A DNA stretch of 31,485 nucleotides from a virus: positions 1-31,485 of the IMG/VR virus record IMGVR_UViG_3300030380_000181; one strand, 5' to 3'. The position numbers and the translations under genes were made by a program. The notes below the pieces were generated by a model. The model ran no database searches. It saw only the letters and a program-made list of their open reading frames with translations, and was not told the origin of the DNA. Position 1 is the stretch's first letter, and each line of letters starts with the position of its first letter. Below are positions 24,005 to 31,051 of this stretch, one piece after another.

Positions 24005-25087
24005 TCATTTCTTTCTTTTTTCCAATGCTGAAGTAGCAGCATCAAGTGTGTGTTTATGATACGGATTGAGTGACGATATATTCTGGTGACCAGTGACAGA
24101 CATGATCTGTAAATGGTCTACACCAGAGTCAATCATCTCAACAATCCCACTCTTTCTGAGGTTACCAACCTTCAAAAATTTTGGTAGTCCACAGTTCTCT
24201 TTTACCCTGTTTGCATAGAGGGATATATGAGATCTCGTTAGGGGTCTGTATGCCCCGTCTGATGGCCTCTGATAAGGTATTACATACTCTTGGAAGTCCC
24301 AATCTTTCCTCTGGTCAGAGAGCATCTGCTTTATCTCGTTAGAGATGGGTAGTTGTACAGTAGCACCACGTTTTGTCTGAGTAATAGTTACCACGGATTT
24401 ATCCATGTTCAAGGCATCCCACTTTAATAATCGTATATCGTTAGGTCTTTGTGCCCACTCGTAACAGAGCAATACGACAAGACCAATAGCTCTCCACTCC
24501 CACCTAGAGAATGCAGTGTCTAGAAATAATTCTACCTGCTCCTGAGTCCATACCTCTGAGACAGGCTGATGCTTTTTCTTTTTAATCTTCGACATAGGAT
24601 TATGGTCTATCATATCTAATGATATGCAGTAGTTTAGTAGTACAGATAAAACCCTAGATAGTTGGTTGGCCTTGGCTGTACTACCACTAATTACCCAAGC
24701 CTCGTAAGCTTGCGAACAATGGAAAGCATTTAAATCTCCAACCTTAATAGAACCTAAAGTTCTACCACCAATAATAGTATTACTTATAGAGTTCATAGAA
24801 TATTCGTATTGTCTTTGAGAACTGTAAGCTAAAGACCTAAAGTTATTAGTACTAATATAATACTTATATACTTGTAGTATTGTACTGGTCGCACCAATAT
24901 TACCTGCAACAATTTTTCCATTACGGAAATCATCCACCATCTGTATCAGTCTAGGTATCTCATACCTAGCAGTCCTTCCATCGTGAAAGGTCTGACGTGA
25001 TACCACCTTCGCATCTATTGCAGATTGAGGTGGGGTAAATCGCCACACCCAACCAGATTTTAATTTTACTTTTTCTGTGTATCTCAT
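24005..25087 (-). CDS. int: Tyrosine recombinase, phage integrase (360 aa)
   Basis: Expected to catalyse site-specific integration or excision. An N-terminal arm-binding-like region and a SAM-like core-binding domain (about 65-165) precede the catalytic domain. From the chosen start, the active site is Arg214 (WAQRPNDIRLLKW), Lys239 in the beta-turn TKRGATVQLPI, Arg311 (GNLRKSG), His334 (VTGHQN) and nucleophile Tyr343 (NPYHKHT). The first His of HxxR is replaced by Gly308. I used ATG 25087 rather than TTG 25111 because AGGA lies 6 bases upstream and it makes an ATGA overlap with the 35-aa gene. It sits inside the early operon rather than next to an obvious attP or excisionase. Confidence 0.93.
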   Translation of the reverse strand: MRYTEKVKLKSGWVWRFTPPQSAIDAKVVSRQTFHDGRTARYEIPRLIQMVDDFRNGKIVAGNIGATSTILQVYKYYISTNNFRSLAYSSQRQYEYSMNSISNTIIGGRTLGSIKVGDLNAFHCSQAYEAWVISGSTAKANQLSRVLSVLLNYCISLDMIDHNPMSKIKKKKHQPVSEVWTQEQVELFLDTAFSRWEWRAIGLVVLLCYEWAQRPNDIRLLKWDALNMDKSVVTITQTKRGATVQLPISNEIKQMLSDQRKDWDFQEYVIPYQRPSDGAYRPLTRSHISLYANRVKENCGLPKFLKVGNLRKSGIVEMIDSGVDHLQIMSVTGHQNISSLNPYHKHTLDAATSALEKRKK

Positions 25088-25191
25088 ATCTTTCCTATCC
25101 AGTGTGTGCAATCGTCATGCGGATCATCCACATAGGACATCCTATTCCACCAATAATATACCATCGCATTCCCCAAAGCTAATAGTAACAT
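25084..25191 (-). CDS. Tiny protein before integrase (35 aa)
   Basis: Reads MLLLALGNAMVYYWWNRMSY then VDDPHDDCTHWIGKI. The first half is hydrophobic and aromatic and could associate with a membrane. It ends in an ATGA overlap with the integrase start (25084-25087). It has no strong ribosome site, so the evidence is the overlap and the otherwise empty 140-base gap. It is too small and lacks the basic character expected of an excisionase. Confidence 0.45.
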   Translation of the reverse strand: MLLLALGNAMVYYWWNRMSYVDDPHDDCTHWIGKI

Positions 25192-25228
25192 AACAAGGCA
25201 CTGTAAAACAATACCTTGTTATTATTTT

Positions 25229-25429
25229 TTATATTCTGACACCATCATCTTCCCAAGATAAGACTTTTGTAATCTTTTCGTAAGCGTCTAACCCGTGTAT
25301 GCATTCGTATATACGGACAAGACACCCCTTGTAGGAAGATTGATTAGCAATATCAACACTATGAGATAGTAAATCCTGATAGGATTTGCATACTGTCTCG
25401 TCATTATATGTAATTTCTACAAGGTACAT
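25229..25429 (-). CDS. Hypothetical protein (66 aa)
   Basis: Reads MYLVEITYNDETVCKSYQDL, then a helix, a CLVRIYECIHG strand and an end WEDDGVRI. Mixed alpha-beta and soluble, with three spaced cysteines. TAATG overlap with the upstream gene at 25429. No family recognised. After its stop there are about 37 non-coding bases before the next small gene. Confidence 0.66.
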   Translation of the reverse strand: MYLVEITYNDETVCKSYQDLLSHSVDIANQSSYKGCLVRIYECIHGLDAYEKITKVLSWEDDGVRI

Positions 25430-25695
25430 TACGCTTTACCTCCTTCGATAACTATTAGTTGTGGTCGAGATGGCCTAGAAGTCAAGACATTTTTTATCTC
25501 TTGATATCTTTCTGGGTCATAGTCTCTCATAGCCAACACTGGTTCGGTATCCCAAACATCAAACACGGCTTCGGGGAAAGCCTCGTTTAGTAAACCACAA
25601 ATATGATCTGCACCTTCACAAGTCGAGCACCTCATAATGAGGCACTCGTTTAGTTCATCTACATATAGTTCTACAACGTAGTAATGTTTCCACAT
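25429..25695 (-). CDS. Hypothetical protein (88 aa)
   Basis: Reads MWKHYYVVELYVDELNECLI, then MRCSTCEGADHICGLLNEAF with a CxxC, and DYDPERYQEIKNVL. A single CxxC plus one further cysteine (CSTCEGADHIC) hints at metal or disulphide, but it is not a full zinc ribbon. One base separates it from the 75-aa gene upstream; TAATG overlap downstream. Confidence 0.67.
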   Translation of the reverse strand: MWKHYYVVELYVDELNECLIMRCSTCEGADHICGLLNEAFPEAVFDVWDTEPVLAMRDYDPERYQEIKNVLTSRPSRPQLIVIEGGKA

Positions 25696-25696
25696 G

Positions 25697-25924
25697 TCAA
25701 CCTGCGAAGTGATGTAGTTTACGCATAGAGGTACGGTTAGGTTTACGCTCTATGTAGATAGATCGTTTACCTAGATGTATGTTAGTCATACACCTACCCC
25801 TTTCGATAGTCCAACCACGATTGATTACACTACGCTTACGGTAGATCCCCTTGATACCAAGGAAGTTGTAACGGAAACCTTCACATCCGTCTTGAGTTGG
25901 TTTAGTTGCGAATAGTACAAACAT
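25697..25924 (-). CDS. Basic hypothetical protein (75 aa)
   Basis: A strong ribosome site (AAGGAG, 5-6 bases before ATG) decides this start. The protein is Arg/Lys-rich (KGIYRKRSVINRGW, KRSIYIERKPNRTSMRK) with aromatic residues. It has few acidic residues, so nucleic-acid binding is possible. It follows a 116-base gap that carries a possible promoter. No family recognised. Confidence 0.62.
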   Translation of the reverse strand: MFVLFATKPTQDGCEGFRYNFLGIKGIYRKRSVINRGWTIERGRCMTNIHLGKRSIYIERKPNRTSMRKLHHFAG

Positions 25925-25977
25925 TTTTTACTCCTTATGCTTGTGAATGATTACAGTAATATAGTAAGTTCCCCCAA

Positions 25978-25983
25978 TGTCAA
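25978..25983 (-). promoter_or_regulatory. Possible -35 box of a leftward promoter
   Basis: A perfect TTGACA on the minus strand in the gap before the 75-aa gene. The best -10 candidates are off: TATATT lies only 14 bases downstream, and the 17-base position reads ATTACT. Only a weak promoter call is possible. Confidence 0.3.
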
Positions 25984-26040
25984 TACCCAATACTACAAAT
26001 ACAGAAAAAGTTTGGATACGACAGAGGGGAAACTACCACC

Positions 26041-26886
26041 TCATGCAGCTTGTAGCTGAGTGAAGCGGTTATCTGATACCCATTTAGATACCTCTTGTTC
26101 TCTTGAGAACATAGATACAGCCTGAGTATCGTTACCAGTGTCACGTAACTTGAAGCCGTTACGTTCATCTGCATATGATGCATAGTTCGTAAAGGCAGAG
26201 TACAATGCCCACTTGTTAGCACCACGTACTTGTCTCTCTATATTATAGAGTTCGTACATTCTCTGTGCCTTTCGTTTAGATGGTATCATTGTTTCTAACA
26301 ATGCTTCCACATCTACATACTTGAGGTCAGTCTTAGCCCAGACTTTCATCTTGGCAGTCTCTTCGTAGAAGTCTCTACGAGAGTTCTGTAGTTCGTTGAT
26401 GAAACCATCTAACGTAAAGTTAGATGTATTCTTCTTGCGGATCTTATCATACTCACCACGTATCATACCATTGGTACAAAAGAAATCTATCTGACCAAAG
26501 AATACTTGGTTGGAACAAGAACCATCAATACCATGTAATGATATGATACGATTACCAATCGTAGTTGTGTGTCTATCTGTCTCGATATCCACCTGCATAT
26601 CAGGTAAGGTAATGTCAAGCATAGCCCATGCATCACCTCGTGCTCTACTCCAATTATATTTAGCATTCATTGTGTCCTCTGGACGTAGAGTCTCTGTGAT
26701 TGTGTTTTGTACACGTCTAAAGAAATCACCGTGGTTCGCACACTTGAAGTCTTTGCCAACAATACCAAGGTATTCACCTGTATCGGCATTGATAACGTAC
26801 TTCTTGTCTTTGAACTTGGTAGGTTCAAACTCTACTTCAAAGTCTAGGGTTGTTGGTACAAAGTCTGTAGTATAATCGAATGGCAT
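26041..26886 (-). CDS. DUF932 / phage-plasmid-like protein (281 aa)
   Basis: I chose ATG 26886 (MPFDYTTDF), with AAAGGA 6 bases upstream; a longer frame starts at 26901. Typical DUF932 order: YVINADTGEYLGIVGKDFK near 25-43, a long middle with GDAWAMLDITLPD and QVFFGQIDFFCTNGM near 125-140, and helices plus NKWALYSAFTNYASYAD near 220-238. The family is common on plasmids and phages. Its function is unknown, though links to DNA transfer and early replication are suspected. A palindromic element lies in the 42-base gap upstream (26910-26931). Confidence 0.85.
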   Translation of the reverse strand: MPFDYTTDFVPTTLDFEVEFEPTKFKDKKYVINADTGEYLGIVGKDFKCANHGDFFRRVQNTITETLRPEDTMNAKYNWSRARGDAWAMLDITLPDMQVDIETDRHTTTIGNRIISLHGIDGSCSNQVFFGQIDFFCTNGMIRGEYDKIRKKNTSNFTLDGFINELQNSRRDFYEETAKMKVWAKTDLKYVDVEALLETMIPSKRKAQRMYELYNIERQVRGANKWALYSAFTNYASYADERNGFKLRDTGNDTQAVSMFSREQEVSKWVSDNRFTQLQAA

Positions 26887-26909
26887 TTGTTTTCCTTTCA
26901 TTCGGTTTC

Positions 26910-26931
26910 ATTCACGGAAATTCCGTGATTA
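26910..26931 (-). repeat. Palindromic start-associated element, copy A
   Basis: Plus-strand core TCACGGAAATTCCGTGA is a perfect palindrome around one base. It spans the stop of the GP88-like gene and precedes the DUF932-like gene. Confidence 0.85.
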
Positions 26932-27627
26932 GTGTTCAGATAGATGAACTATCTGGGTTCGGTTAATAGTCTTCTGTGCAAAGCAACCTGCCTTGCAGTC
27001 TTTACAATGACCCTTCAGACCCTTGTGTGTCTTAGGACAAGCAAACATACGTTTGCCATATACAGGGTCATGTGTCAACGTATCATCACCATAGAACATG
27101 ATGTTCCAATCATCGTCAATCAGCATCTGCCATTCGGCCTCGCTGTTAGATGGGTCTAGTGAAGCATTAATTGCACAGTTGTCAAGAGGCATTAGCTCTT
27201 TCTCAATCAAGGATTTTATCCTTGGGTTACGCCATGCTCGTGTCGGTATCCACCATAGGATGTCGGGATTGAGCAAGCACATAGTCTTTACACGATAGAC
27301 ATCTTTGATGTCTTTGAATGCCTCACCCCTAGTCATGTGACGAACACGACTAGTGTCGTAACGTTTACGACTAAAGAACTGAGTGAAGTCAGAGTTAGAC
27401 TTGTCTAGCTTCTGCCAGATAGTCTCGCACCTATCGTCACGGTTAGCCATGTTCTCATACATATTGTATAACTTAATGTTATAACAGGTCTGGTCACAAT
27501 AGTCTGTCCTATGTATGCAAGAACCTTCATGGTTCTTAGTATCGTTGATGGGTCTATCAGATGCCGCCATGCCTATGTCTTTGCATTCTCTGAATAGATC
27601 ATTTAGTTCTTGAGTTGTTACAGTCAT
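26929..27627 (-). CDS. GP88-like cysteine-rich protein (232 aa)
   Basis: Features resemble the phage GP88 family: an N-terminal cysteine cluster (CIHRTDYCDQTCYNIKLYN, about 37-55), MTRGEAFKDIKDVY near 98-111, WWIPTRAWRN near 125-134 and INASLDPS near 152. A second cysteine cluster follows at the C-terminus (FACPKTHKGLKGHCKDCKAGCF, about 197-218). The spaced cysteines suggest metal binding, perhaps an iron-sulphur or zinc site. Biochemical function is unknown. Its start codon and the preceding stop both lie inside one palindromic repeat copy (27626-27647). Confidence 0.78.
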   Translation of the reverse strand: MTVTTQELNDLFRECKDIGMAASDRPINDTKNHEGSCIHRTDYCDQTCYNIKLYNMYENMANRDDRCETIWQKLDKSNSDFTQFFSRKRYDTSRVRHMTRGEAFKDIKDVYRVKTMCLLNPDILWWIPTRAWRNPRIKSLIEKELMPLDNCAINASLDPSNSEAEWQMLIDDDWNIMFYGDDTLTHDPVYGKRMFACPKTHKGLKGHCKDCKAGCFAQKTINRTQIVHLSEH

Positions 27628-27647
27628 TCTCGGAATCTCCGTGATTA
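27626..27647 (-). repeat. Palindromic start-associated element, copy B
   Basis: Core TCTCGGAATCTCCGTGA. It fills the whole gap between two genes: it contains the TAA stop of the 132-aa gene and the ATG of the GP88-like gene, with GGAG inside. Confidence 0.85.
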
Positions 27648-28043
27648 GGTTTCTAGTAATTGTTCTGCTTGATCCAAGCTTGCTACCTTGATAACAGGTT
27701 TATTTTGTTTGTCAAGGTACATGAATCCAACATCAGCTTCAAAGATAGGATCTTCGTTCTCGTCCACAAATGATGTGTACTTGTACGGGTTGTAACGTAC
27801 AGTTGTGTAGCCATCCAGTATGTCAAAGGGTATTACCTCATCCATACCTTGATACCCTTCGGGTCTAACGAAAGCATGAACATTCTTAGACTTGTCTCTA
27901 AGAACACGTTCACGTCCACCTTGCTGTACAACAAACGTAGGTCTGACTAGACCCACCCATCTCTTGTGTGCAATCACCTTACCGTGTCGTTCTCTCACAG
28001 AGAACAGTCGCTTATGTAGGTTAAAATAGATTTCAACTTTCAT
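27645..28043 (-). CDS. Conserved phage early protein (132 aa)
   Basis: Recognisable conserved opening: KVEIYFNLHKRLFSVRERHGKVIAHKRWV. Then FVVQQGGRERVLRDKSKNVHAFVRPEG, a pattern I recall from many phage early proteins without known function. The centre is strand-rich, and the end is a helix after VIKVASLDQAEQLL. ATG 28043 is preferred (AAGGG 7-8 bases upstream), with GTG 28046 as an alternative. Overlaps the preceding gene by 11 bases. Confidence 0.82.
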   Translation of the reverse strand: MKVEIYFNLHKRLFSVRERHGKVIAHKRWVGLVRPTFVVQQGGRERVLRDKSKNVHAFVRPEGYQGMDEVIPFDILDGYTTVRYNPYKYTSFVDENEDPIFEADVGFMYLDKQNKPVIKVASLDQAEQLLET

Positions 28044-28254
28044 CACGTACCCTTTCTGATACTTTCATGGCAAGCCATGTGTCAGTCTTATAGTCTTGGC
28101 CTAGTACATCTTGCAGATGTCTAGCCTTTTCAAGAGCCATCTCCTTGCTATCACTAGATAGATGTACTCTACCCCAATGCTTCCAGATAATCTTAGTGCT
28201 GTCTGGGTTAGCTTCCTTGTTCATATTATGAACTATGTTTATTTCGTATTGCAT
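28033..28254 (-). CDS. Hypothetical early protein (73 aa)
   Basis: The start at ATG 28254 is supported by AGGAG 7 bases upstream; a longer frame from 28275 would run through that ribosome site. The protein reads MQYEINIVHNMNKEANPDST, then WKHWGRVHLSSDSKEMALEKARHL, mixed strand-helix and soluble. A palindromic element lies 20 bases before the start. No family recognised. Confidence 0.68.
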   Translation of the reverse strand: MQYEINIVHNMNKEANPDSTKIIWKHWGRVHLSSDSKEMALEKARHLQDVLGQDYKTDTWLAMKVSERVRDES

Positions 28255-28414
28255 TTGTAGTCTCCTGTTTTTCATTCACGGAAATTCCGAGATTAGATTT
28301 AGCGAGGTCTAACTTGATTGTCAAGCCCCGTTGAGGCATCAACATCTGCTGTAAGAAAACAGATTGCCAATACTTATCTGCACGTCTGGCAGACCTGTTG
28401 CGTTTAGGTATCAT
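28226..28414 (-). CDS. Possible basic small protein overlapping a regulatory repeat (62 aa)
   Basis: From ATG 28414 the frame reads MIPKRNRSARRADKYWQSVF and continues through LTIKLDLAKSNLGISVNEKQ. Its 3' third runs through the palindromic repeat at 28274-28296 and the ribosome site of the next gene, and overlaps that gene by 29 bases. The N-terminal half looks protein-like and basic, and fills an otherwise empty 150-base gap. A shorter true product or a non-coding gap with a promoter are alternatives. Confidence 0.4.
   Translation of the reverse strand: MIPKRNRSARRADKYWQSVFLQQMLMPQRGLTIKLDLAKSNLGISVNEKQETTNAIRNKHSS
28274..28296 (-). repeat. Palindromic start-associated element, copy C
   Basis: Core TCACGGAAATTCCGAGA, 20 bases before ATG 28254. 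A weak promoter (TTGACA 28319-28324, 17 bases, TAAATC 28296-28301) would place this copy at the transcription start. Confidence 0.82.
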
Positions 28415-28646
28415 GTTTATCAATCTCATCACGAACTTCTATTAATCTCTCGATTAAACTGTCTAGCGTTCTGCCATAAAATGTTATGTCATAGGGAATA
28501 CTCTCCCATGTTTCGCCCTTGTCTTTATCGGGTAGGACAGCGATCTCTCGATCATCATATCTATTACCCATATTTCTGTGATCAGAGATAGATATCTCTC
28601 TGCTTTTGTGTGTTACATACACGTTGTTCATGTCTGGTAGTTTCAT
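28404..28646 (-). CDS. Hypothetical early protein (80 aa)
   Basis: Begins MKLPDMNNVYVTHKSREISI and ends in an acidic helix (TLDSLIERLIEVRDEIDK). The start follows GGGAGAATACCT, the same ribosome site and spacer as in the next gene upstream (start 28829). Soluble and mixed alpha-beta. No family recognised. Confidence 0.68.
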   Translation of the reverse strand: MKLPDMNNVYVTHKSREISISDHRNMGNRYDDREIAVLPDKDKGETWESIPYDITFYGRTLDSLIERLIEVRDEIDKHDT

Positions 28647-28903: not shown

Positions 28904-28964
28904 AAACTTCTTTGAAGTTTACCATTCACGGAACTTCCGAGATTGATATACTTCAAAGAAGTAT
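28904..28964. repeat. Two palindromes that also form one long inverted repeat
   Basis: AAACTTC-TTT-GAAGTTT (28904-28920) and ATACTTC-AAA-GAAGTAT (28948-28964) can each fold alone. Their 13-base cores, at 28906-28918 and 28950-28962, are also perfectly complementary to each other. The palindromic element at 28924-28946 lies between them. Confidence 0.75.
28924..28946 (-). repeat. Palindromic element, copy D
   Basis: Core TCACGGAACTTCCGAGA, placed between two complementary hairpins. It shares the flank GTTTACC next to the element with copy F. Confidence 0.82.
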
Positions 28965-28969
28965 AAACT

Positions 28970-28993
28970 AAAAAAGCCCTCCGAAGAGGGCTT
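28970..28993 (-). terminator. Leftward intrinsic terminator
   Basis: On the minus strand: AAGCCCTC-TTCG-GAGGGCTT followed by a T-run. The 8-base-pair stem has a cUUCGg tetraloop. It begins 3 bases after the stop of the 58-aa gene, so it should end the first early transcript. Confidence 0.85.
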
Positions 28994-29194: not shown

Positions 29195-29215
29195 AATCTC
29201 GGAAAATCCGAGAAT
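29195..29215 (+). repeat. Palindromic element, copy E (opposite orientation)
   Basis: Core TCTCGGAAAATCCGAGA. The AATC...GAATG polarity is on the plus strand, unlike the other copies. It lies between the first and second early genes. Confidence 0.8.
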
Positions 29216-29219
29216 GGAA

Positions 29220-29244: not shown

Positions 29245-29880
29245 TTATTTGGCTGTAAGAGTTAATAACTCTTTCACTACCAATTTCAAATTGAAGTTAT
29301 TAACTTCAACACAGTCCAGTATTTGCTCTGCAAATTCAACTTCGTTCTTAGGAACGACAGTTTCAAAAACTGTGTTTTTGATCTCGGTAACTTCGTTACC
29401 AGCCATTGTAGTCTCTGAGGAAGCCTTTGGCTTGCCCTTTGAAGTATTACCTGCACTGTTCTTCTTTGAAGAACCACCTTTTTTCTCAACGATTTTCTTC
29501 TGTATAGAAGAAAGCCCAAGAGGATCTCCGTTTTTCTTAAAGAGTTCACCACTCTTTAACATGGACTGAACAAGCTTCCATTCGGAAGCTACGAGCATCA
29601 TGTTATATCGATCTGATGGATCGATAGAAGCCAAATCTGTTGTTGCTATCCACTGACCGAAGGTCTGCTTTGAACCACCAACAAATGCTTTCATGGAAAG
29701 CATAAGGTCACCATTTTCTTTCCATAAAGGAAAGACAGCTTCGCCAAAGTCTCTGACTAAGAGACTTATTGTATCGTTGTTAGCAACGATATGATCAATA
29801 CCATCTTTGATGGTGTAAGATTTTCTGCCGACCTTGATTTTGCCGTTCAAGTTTACTTGAGCTGTTGCTGTATTTGTCAT
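29245..29880 (-). CDS. First gene of the leftward early operon, unknown (211 aa)
   Basis: The globular N-terminal half includes GKIKVGRKSYTIKDGIDHIV, then FGQWIATTDLASIDPSDRYNMMLVASEW near 74-101. The latter loosely resembles DUF3102-type phage proteins with a helix-turn-helix-like region. A Lys/Ser/Gly-rich linker spans about 132-160 and a helical C-terminal part about 165-211. No membrane segment. It is expressed directly from the promoter at 29939-29968, so it should be among the first proteins made. A regulator or antiterminator is a reasonable guess but is not shown by sequence. Confidence 0.72.
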   Translation of the reverse strand: MTNTATAQVNLNGKIKVGRKSYTIKDGIDHIVANNDTISLLVRDFGEAVFPLWKENGDLMLSMKAFVGGSKQTFGQWIATTDLASIDPSDRYNMMLVASEWKLVQSMLKSGELFKKNGDPLGLSSIQKKIVEKKGGSSKKNSAGNTSKGKPKASSETTMAGNEVTEIKNTVFETVVPKNEVEFAEQILDCVEVNNFNLKLVVKELLTLTAK

Positions 29881-29882
29881 AT

Positions 29883-29897
29883 CAATTCTCCGAATTG
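29883..29897 (-). promoter_or_regulatory. Ribosome site in a hairpin loop (first early gene)
   Basis: Minus strand CAATTC-GGA-GAATTG. GGAG in the loop lies 7 bases before ATG 29880. The hairpin could expose or mask the ribosome site. Confidence 0.55.
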
Positions 29898-29938
29898 GTT
29901 AAAGGGTTTTGCTCCGACACCGTTGCCGAAGCCCTTAC

Positions 29939-29968
29939 TTTGTAGCACTGATCAAAATCGGAAGTCAA
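29939..29968 (-). promoter_or_regulatory. Main leftward early promoter
   Basis: Minus strand TTGACT (29963-29968), 18 bases, TGC-TACAAA (29939-29944). The predicted start near 29932 gives a leader of about 50 bases. A hairpin (29977-29994) and a palindromic element (29998-30019) lie just upstream of the -35. It matches the promoters at 17643-17672 and 21324-21353. Confidence 0.72.
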
Positions 29969-29997
29969 GCACTTTTTAAACTCTAAAGAGTTTACCC

Positions 29998-30019
29998 ATT
30001 CACGGAAATTCCGAGAATG
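29998..30019 (-). repeat. Palindromic element, copy F
   Basis: Core TCACGGAAATTCCGAGA, 30 bases upstream of the -35 of the main early promoter. It is preceded by hairpin AAACTC-TAAA-GAGTTT. Confidence 0.82.
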
Positions 30020-30125
30020 CTATTCCCCTTTAGGGGAAAACTTTCTCAACTTTTGGTGGGCATAATGCACAAGGAAAAGCTAGGGGTATATATGCAGGAT
30101 TGATCCCAAGGGGATATGGTTGTCT

Positions 30126-30149
30126 CTAGGTAATTTTACCTAGCTTTTT
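30126..30149 (+). terminator. Rightward intrinsic terminator-like hairpin
   Basis: CTAGGTA-ATTT-TACCTAG followed by CTTTTT on the plus strand. The 7-base-pair stem can be extended to 8 with a tighter loop. No plus-strand gene lies upstream for more than 18 kb, so it may end a short non-coding RNA or antisense transcript. Confidence 0.6.
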
Positions 30150-30287
30150 AAAATCATTCATAAATATCTTGATATTTACAGGTAGATAATCCTTTATTGT
30201 TTGTAAAAACAATAGAAAACAATGCTTTAGCATTGTATGTAGCTGTAAATCCTACGGATTTCACACATGTATAGTCATGGTATGACC

Positions 30288-30311
30288 ACCCGGGCAGGAG
30301 CCATGCCGGGT
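30288..30311. other. Strong GC stem-loop in the control region
   Basis: ACCCGG pairs with CCGGGT (30306-30311). An inner CA/TG extension is reached across one bulged G. The loop reads GGAGCCA. There is no T-run on either side, so it is not a standard terminator. Confidence 0.6.
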
Positions 30312-30575
30312 ATGTAGGTACGTATATACCCATAATGCCAGTGGGGTGGTATTTTAGTTGGTAACTACTTCTAGGTTACCACCTATATAGAATAATATAT
30401 AGTAATAACAAGGGTTTAATACTTTTATTGGAAATATATTCTTTTATATGTAGTATTTACGCAAGGATATTCTTTTTATCGGCAAATAAAAGAAGATTCT
30501 TCTCTTGACTTTGGCAGAATGTATATAGTTCAAAGACATATATGTAGTGTTTTCATGTTGATAACAACATATATT

Positions 30576-30593
30576 AATATTATTAATAATATT
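30576..30593. promoter_or_regulatory. 18-bp perfect AT palindrome upstream of a promoter
   Basis: AATATTATTAATAATATT is a perfect palindrome, 14 bases upstream of the -35 at 30608. A second dyad, ATGTTG-ATAA-CAACAT, lies at 30555-30570. These are operator or UP-element candidates. Confidence 0.5.
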
Positions 30594-30607
30594 TCTTATA
30601 TTAGGGC

Positions 30608-30635
30608 TTGACATATGATGATATGGCGGTATAAT
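30608..30635 (+). promoter_or_regulatory. Consensus rightward sigma-70 promoter
   Basis: TTGACA (30608-30613), 16 bases, TATAAT (30630-30635). Both hexamers are perfect. Transcription would start near 30642 and run about 160 bases before the first rightward gene. Confidence 0.78.
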
Positions 30636-30646
30636 TACTTATAGTA

Positions 30647-30692
30647 TAATACTTAGAGGTATTAATACTTAATAGATAATAATACTTAATAG
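30647..30692 (+). repeat. Three iteron-like copies of TAATACTTA(ATAG)
   Basis: Copies at 30647-30656 (TAATACTTAG), 30663-30675 and 30680-30692 (both TAATACTTAATAG), with starts 16 and 17 bases apart. They lie just after the consensus promoter in very AT-rich DNA. Confidence 0.55.
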
Positions 30693-30761
30693 TTATTATT
30701 ATTAATAGTTATATTCTTTAAGGCATATGAAAAATTTTTTTGTCGTAGGTAATAAAAATCC

Positions 30762-30789
30762 TTGACATCGAATTTGCAAAACGTATAAC
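30762..30789 (+). promoter_or_regulatory. Second rightward promoter close to the first gene
   Basis: TTGACA (30762-30767), 16 bases, TATAAC (30784-30789). The predicted start near 30796 would leave almost no leader before the TTG at 30803. Confidence 0.6.
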
Positions 30790-30802
30790 TAAGGATAATT
30801 AT

Positions 30803-31051
30803 TTGCCCAAGATGTATTCTCACGATAATGTAATTGAAGAGTTCTACAAAGCTCTTGCAAATGAAGATGAGGGCAGACTCAGAAGAGTTCATATCCCAAG
30901 ATCAGATGTATTCTATGTACGAAAGAAAATACACGAAGACACTGGGGTAAAATATTCTTTGGATCATGTAGAACGTGCAATGTATCTAGAGGGTATGCTG
31001 GAACGAAGAGATGTATTTGAACCAAACAGAAAAAGAGATTGGGAAAAATGA
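30803..31051 (+). CDS. Conserved small phage protein, first rightward gene (82 aa)
   Basis: The TTG at 30803 has AAGGA 7 bases upstream, whereas the ATG at 30812 is 16 bases away, so TTG is preferred unless the transcript starts at 30796. The protein reads MYSHDNVIEEFYKALANEDEG from the ATG. IPRSDVFYVRKKIHEDTGVKYSLDHVERAMYLEGML follows, a helical pattern I recall next to holin and terminase genes in marine phages. A small helical DNA-binding or packaging-related role is possible but unproven. ATGA overlap with the next gene. Confidence 0.72.
   Translation: MPKMYSHDNVIEEFYKALANEDEGRLRRVHIPRSDVFYVRKKIHEDTGVKYSLDHVERAMYLEGMLERRDVFEPNRKRDWEK

Follow-up and report, generated by a model that had tools for sequence, protein, structure and literature searches.

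The window analysed here is a 31,485-bp virus record from a marine podovirus, taken at its full length. Late genes are read rightward at its left end and again from position 30803, early and replication genes are read leftward from 29880 down to 12371, and a non-coding gap of ~920 bp (29881-30802) separates the two divergent operons and contains both the hairpins and the conserved core described below. The replication genes include those for ribonucleotide reductase, primase/helicase, ThyX and an integrase, and the DNA polymerase is closest to that of roseophage CRP-6 (56%). A late protein matches HMO-2011 (58.7%) and CRP-9 (52.9%), with no match in CRP-6, CRP-4 or PA11. This gene content fits a published group that combines CRP-6-type replication genes with an HMO-2011-type late module, mostly together with an integrase (PMC8528129), and HMO-2011-type phages rank with the most abundant marine phages (PMC9038755, PMC8528129). 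Since an integrase gene is present (24005-25111), the phage may be temperate. A tRNA and tmRNA search of the window returned none, and no DNA similarity to 29900-30800 was found among named phages.

On the late side, a perfect sigma-70 promoter (TTGACA-16-TATAAT; 30608-30635, plus strand) stands before the rightward operon in the sequence alignment. In nearly all relatives the core is followed by a near-perfect TTGACA-TATAAT promoter, and the order of core then promoter is the same in phages phiM6 and RHph_N3_19. A second promoter-like site (TTGACA-16-TATAAC; 30762-30789, plus strand), conserved within the clade in the alignment, directly precedes the first gene of the late operon (30803-31051, plus strand), which encodes 82 aa, has no function assigned by sequence and has relatives on 597 IMG/VR stretches, in HMO-2011 and in the CRP phages. 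At 30762-30810 the conserved TTGACw-TATAACTAAGGA brings the promoter -10 over the ribosome-binding site of this gene, which suggests that the leader is very short or that translation starts at a later codon. Three AT-rich direct repeats with a spacing of 16-17 bp (30646-30711) lie between the late promoter and the late gene and are a possible operator.

Between the operons lies the divergent control region of this phage, a marine podovirus of the HMO-2011 type. Within this region, the stretch at 30020-30381, which a first-pass annotation made from the letters of the window had treated as a single row of about ten stem-loops, is two different things: the start of a hairpin array and a core conserved in sequence.

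Stem-loops of the non-coding gap

The non-coding part of the array extends over 29977-30290 and comprises about ten stem-loops, at 29977-29994, 30003-30013, 30023-30038, 30103-30115, 30126-30143, 30161-30178, 30195-30214, 30219-30236, 30247-30261 and 30274-30286; it would form the leader of the leftward early transcript. All ten stems of the first-pass annotation exist, seven of them to the exact base. The stem at 30359-30381 agrees to within one base, that at 30309-30330 is present as an imperfect hairpin, and that at 30288-30311 is confirmed by direct reading (ACCCGG...CCGGGT). Three hairpins had been missed, one inside the interval (30161-30178) and two just to its left (29977-29994 and 30003-30013). 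The rightmost stems have a different standing from the rest. Those at 30288-30311 and 30309-30330 fall within the conserved core and find no support in relatives, in which the core lacks excess structure (mean z -0.1 / -0.6), and the stem at 30359-30381 is paired in 37.5% of alignment cells, is kept by few relatives and is likewise unsupported.

The structure had been expected to fold more stably than shuffled sequence and to show compensatory changes across homologues, and both are seen. The folding energy of 30020-30400 is lower than that of 100 of 100 dinucleotide shuffles on both strands (z -3.2 on the plus and -4.35 on the minus strand). Among 11 aligned sequences, 24 pairs are altered on both sides, compared with 16.4 in shuffles, none of 500 of which scored as high, and with 6-13 when the structure is slid along the alignment. 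These two-sided changes occupy 49 cells, a figure never reached in 500 shuffles, and the covariation score in the same 11 sequences is 0.195 vs 0.107. Relatives align as the same row of hairpins with altered sequences, so that one place is occupied by CTAGGTAATTTTACCTAG, TTGGTACAAGTACCAA, AACCCCTTGGGGTT or TTGGTCTAAAGACCAA, and some non-coding hairpins flip to their own reverse complement between relatives. Between the window and its relative L002, 0 of 96 stem bases have changed, compared with 35 of 226 others (p 1.8e-6).

One first-pass reading of 30020-30381 was a stand-alone structured non-coding RNA. The compensatory changes in the non-coding part would fit such an RNA, as would an intrinsic-terminator-like hairpin on the plus strand (30126-30143), but the window has no match to any Rfam family at gathering score and only chance-level matches at E up to 10. 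The hairpins are independent and short and do not make up one fold, the core within the interval is without excess structure, and a T run after a GC stem, as in intrinsic terminators, is carried by only a minority of the array. The hairpins also pass unbroken, and at higher density, into the protein-coding early genes, so a free-standing RNA is very improbable indeed. The ten hairpins are instead the non-coding start of an array that extends leftward across the early genes as far as about 24 kb.

Hairpins within the early genes

Perfect hairpins (stem of at least 6, loop of 3-6) were counted along the window. Per 500 bp, the late genes hold ~0.4; the count is 11-12 between 29 and 30 kb and 8 between 30 and 30.5 kb, and it drops to 0 at 31 kb. 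The first-pass view that hairpin density in the gap is far above that of neighbouring coding DNA is therefore right for the right-hand side and wrong for the left, where the coding gene is the denser of the two (11-12 vs 8). This first early gene (29245-29880, minus strand) encodes a 211-aa protein of no known family and contains 16 perfect hairpins in its coding sequence, compared with 2.0 +/- 1.3, and at most 7, in 500 codon-preserving shuffles. Just before it, a further perfect hairpin (29883-29897, minus strand) holds the ribosome-binding GGAG in its loop; among relatives the stem varies and the loop is constant. The genes farther along the early operon (24005-28646, minus strand), among them the integrase, DUF932, GP88 and L5 gp82-like genes, show a weaker excess that rises towards the control region. 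By the codon-shuffle test the excess is significant at 24005-25111 (integrase), 26041-26901, 26929-27627 and 28033-28275, weaker at 27645-28046 and 28404-28646, and lacking at 25429-25695 and in the late and replication genes.

Within the first early gene, the positions of the hairpins are kept in relatives while the stems change together, and in the region of this gene the pair L008/L026 differs at 8 of 304 stem bases vs 59 of 494 elsewhere (p 8e-7). The array thus shows the marks of selected RNA structure, namely more pairing than in codon-preserving controls, compensatory changes and stems under constraint; it is densest in the leader and the first gene, and it is kept by selection with compensatory changes.

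Two particular hairpin types occur along the early operon. A repeated element of the TCACGGAAATTCCGAGA type lies in its gaps in both orientations (26912-26928, 28276-28295, 28926-28945, 29197-29216 and 30000-30019), with copies in relatives too, and at 28974-28993 there is a strong hairpin of bidirectional terminator shape, with UUCG as its loop and a T run on the minus strand. No leftward promoter was found.

To ask on which strand the array acts, four groups of phages were oriented with the early genes as sense. Sense-strand loops are A-rich (0.41-0.49, compared with a background of 0.31-0.33 and with 0.20 in array-free controls), and several loops are one-sided, with AAA seen 14 times vs TTT once, GTAA 9 vs TTAC 0, GCA 7 vs TGC 0 and TTCG 5 vs CGAA 0. 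Loops of the coding part include GNRA- and UUCG-type loops on the sense strand and the ribosome-binding sequence. Among hairpins with one non-Watson-Crick pair, sense G-U pairs number 59 vs 32.6 expected (p 3e-6) and antisense ones 26 vs 32.9 expected, where p-values are approximate because the pooled sequences come from related phages. Sense G-U pairs and loop composition together make the coding and downstream regions strand-specific, although for the GT/AC test the window's clade near the core is insufficient alone and the signal appears only with more groups. From the A-rich sense loops and the sense G-U enrichment, the array most likely acts in the early mRNA. Some observations point the other way. 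The first early gene is mostly perfect Watson-Crick, which is unusual for RNA, and has no clear G-U excess (12 vs 7.5, p 0.11), hairpins near the core are perfect in 185 cases and have one mismatch in 42 (late genes, 44 vs 92), some hairpins flip orientation, and loop asymmetry within just the non-coding part reaches p 0.06, with CTTG loops on the plus strand. For the non-coding part, the minus strand is therefore a proposal, drawn from loop composition in the coding members.

The same perfect pairing (185 vs 42) raises the question of whether the hairpins might be a functionless by-product, in which inverted repeats are made and perfected by template switching where small palindromes lie close to a DNA end or an origin. 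The flipping of non-coding hairpins between relatives and the drop in density with distance from the control region would also be expected of such a process. However, template switching does not predict stems that change less than their flanks (p 1.8e-6 and 8e-7), and strand-asymmetric loops, the enrichment of sense G-U pairs, the lack of any hairpins right of the core and the restriction of the array to phages with one early protein family all speak against it, which makes a by-product improbable. Perfect pairing and loop flips would equally suit hairpins that act as DNA, extruded or single-stranded, in a replication origin or primosome assembly region, and the AT-rich DNA right of the core and the position in the sole divergent region of the genome point the same way. 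Against this, the array spans some 6 kb of coding genes, its loops and wobble pairs are strand-specific, and CRP-9, CRP-13, CRP-2 and CRP-207 have the same genome plan and no array; a role as DNA is quite improbable.

The array keeps company with a particular protein. The nearest relatives share it, with 23-29 hairpins in the densest kilobase, and in the codon-shuffle test it is found in HMO-2011 (8 vs 0.76 in gp74; 5 vs 0.86 in gp01), CRP-1 (9 vs 1.46) and CRP-345 (5 vs 0.81). It is missing from CRP-6 and CRP-4, and from CRP-2, CRP-207, CRP-13 and CRP-9. The first early proteins of the array-bearing phages are homologous (profile comparison, P 2.4e-6), and the first-read genes of the last four phages look unrelated to them by eye. 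An initial search gave no relatives of the window's first early protein, and an alignment query found them. Built from the CRP-1, CRP-345 and HMO-2011 proteins, a model detects the window ORF at E 6.6e-5 as well as its relative L009, and, HMO-2011 itself aside, no further match among the ORFs of all loci. Scans of IMG/VR for the family give 65 loci; of 45 distinct genes, about 35 show a strong hairpin excess. One subgroup, related to the family in its N-terminal part alone, lacks the array, so the association is strong but not strict. The protein is predicted to be helical (mean pLDDT 75); the model has no PDB or viral structure match at E 0.001, and comparison of the protein with Pfam, PHROGs and NCBIfam gave nothing convincing. 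A literature search for hairpin-dense early phage genes returned nothing relevant.

The conserved core and the probable start of packaging

The core (30293-30368, plus strand) is a 76-base element that is conserved in sequence, single-copy and fixed in orientation, and reads GGCAtGgGCCA, a G/C-rich variable run, GTAcGTATATACcCaaATGACAGaG, a T-rich run and GTTAACcAC. Profiles are needed to follow it, because blastn with a 91-bp core finds just CRP-9, at E 0.8. With a profile built from 30280-30390, one copy in the same orientation is found in 64 of 80 IMG/VR loci that share the next gene; the other 16 are contigs that end 456 bp or less upstream of that gene, so that the core is present in 64 of 64 related loci that reach far enough. 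It also occurs once each in CRP-1, 2, 9, 13, 207, 345, 603 and ctYwJ313, and in HMO-2011 as a single copy at 53556-53631, the best match in that genome. The core is absent from CRP-6 and CRP-4, which match the window in their replication genes but not in their late genes. Across phages with different replication modules, the core therefore tracks the packaging/late module and not the replication module. The first-pass suggestion of a replication origin is disfavoured by the same facts, as an origin would be conserved with its cognate replication genes, yet CRP-6 and CRP-4 share those genes and carry neither core nor array, and other replication modules joined to an HMO-2011-type late module do carry the core.

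Several details of the core and its surroundings were noted. The G run becomes a C run in L080, L065, L027, L068, L019 and L022 with the flanking blocks unchanged, an odd substitution; because C runs replace G runs in several relatives, a G-quadruplex was rejected, and pairing of the G/C runs across the core is not consistent. The best match in PA11 (4.5 bits, in the divergent gap, opposite orientation) is treated as chance. Downstream of the core, an operator-like palindrome of the TTTGTGATCACAAA type is repeated in L045, L063, L071, L078 and L081, and upstream of it L082 (CRP-9) has several imperfect AGTTTAATNTTAAAC-type repeats, which resemble operators and not the hairpin array.

A single-copy cis element conserved with the packaging module is what would be expected of a pac site, and one cultured phage allows a comparison. 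Sinorhizobium phage phiM6 packages by the headful mechanism according to PhageTerm, with pac set as position 1 (PMC6256558). The best core match in its 68-kb genome lies at 60-94, in the same orientation relative to the terminase operon and 59 bp from the published pac position (PMC6256558). Taken alone, this match is weak (7.7-8.5 bits, E 0.09-0.26; E 0.008 within the gap), and its weight comes from its position and from the match in RHph_N3_19. By chance, the best match in a genome of 68 kb would land on the correct strand and no farther than 100 bp from position 1 with a probability of ~0.0015. When the gaps of phiM6 and RHph_N3_19 are compared, the two clearly conserved stretches are the core element (71 bp, 79%) and, further on, the sigma-70 promoter, and the core profile finds the element in RHph_N3_19 at E 8e-4. 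In CRP-9, the small terminase subunit gene lies about 4.5 kb from the core and is not adjacent to it as in many pac phages. On these sequence comparisons, the core is most likely the pac site for headful packaging, and the packaging signal proposed at first pass survives for 30293-30368 only. By analogy with phiM6, the first cut in the window's phage might fall near 30240, inside the hairpin tract.

The ends of assembled contigs bear on this reading and on its alternative, that the core is a cos site or regulates the late promoter as an operator/enhancer. Contig IMGVR_UViG_3300020173_000001 (L007/L169; 54,756 bp) has ends that overlap by exactly 127 identical bases, which indicates a closed genome cut inside the control region, and the core lies inside long contigs such as L026, L046, L052 and L064. 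Both observations fit, but do not prove, virion DNA that is circularly permuted and terminally redundant. Among left-truncated contigs, 31 of 54 end in the kilobase upstream of the late operon, spread and not at one base; either terminus enrichment or strain variability would produce this concentration, and the spread ends and core-spanning contigs could also be explained by intracellular concatemers. A cos site would account for the concentration of ends, for the two contigs that begin inside the core (L004 and L086) and for the G/C-rich run, which varies where the blocks on either side are conserved, as a cos overhang might, and an operator would account for the promoter downstream. A cos site is made less likely by contigs that run through the core and by the 127-base self-closure, which is how circular or permuted DNA assembles; HMO-2011 is also deposited as circular, and phiM6 is reported as pac/headful (PMC6256558). 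For an operator, the nearest candidate for a late regulator, the ORF at 30803, has no match in phiM6. The alternative as a whole appears rather unlikely. A search of the accessible literature found nothing on where packaging starts in HMO-2011-type phages or on their early control region.

Proposed roles and comparison with known systems

The account that we narrowly favour, as somewhat probable on the sequence evidence, is that hairpins and core do different jobs, the array as a chain of stem-loops in early mRNA and the core as a pac site with the late promoter downstream. The leftward early mRNA would be a string of small stem-loops, which would protect it or adjust how it is degraded and translated as infection begins, and the first early protein, which occurs together with the array, is a candidate partner that may bind the hairpins. 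The small terminase subunit would recognise the core, with the first headful cut close by, and the sigma-70 promoter 240 bp downstream would start the late operon. The existence, constraint, place and likely strand of the array are established, and the roles that it may have include mRNA stability, translation control, avoidance of RNA-directed defence and binding by the first early protein. A bolder and more doubtful proposal is a new two-part early system, in which a mini-hairpin chain is recognised by the first early protein, or blocks a host RNA-directed defence or nuclease, and protein and array co-evolve.

At about eight times chance and with the strand marks of RNA, the hairpins constrain the coding sequence of the early genes strongly and unexpectedly. 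Whatever the role of the array, it must matter in the first minutes of infection, when host RNA decay and RNA-based defence act. With phiM6 as a fitting cultured relative, the candidate pac makes packaging directly testable from existing virion reads.

Like the pac sites of P22, SPP1 and phiM6, the core is a single-copy cis element of fixed orientation near the late/packaging operon. Unlike them, it lies in non-coding DNA between divergent operons, with the small-terminase gene several kb away and neither overlapping nor adjoining it, and it is spread across phages with different replication modules, in a group for which the cut has been mapped in phiM6 only.

The array shares short, GC-containing intergenic hairpins with REP/BIME-type repeats and intrinsic terminators, and some have true terminator shapes (28974-28993), but it is not one repeated sequence and most of its hairpins lie inside coding sequence. 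Base pairing inside coding sequence is also selected at the RNA level in RNA viruses with genome-scale ordered RNA structure (GORS) and in structured phage mRNA leaders, and the array resembles both in this respect. It differs from both in consisting of discrete, tandem, nearly perfect hairpins of 6-9 bp with loops of 3-6 nt, at up to 25-28 per kb, and in being limited to the early genes of a dsDNA phage, where it is found with one early protein family.
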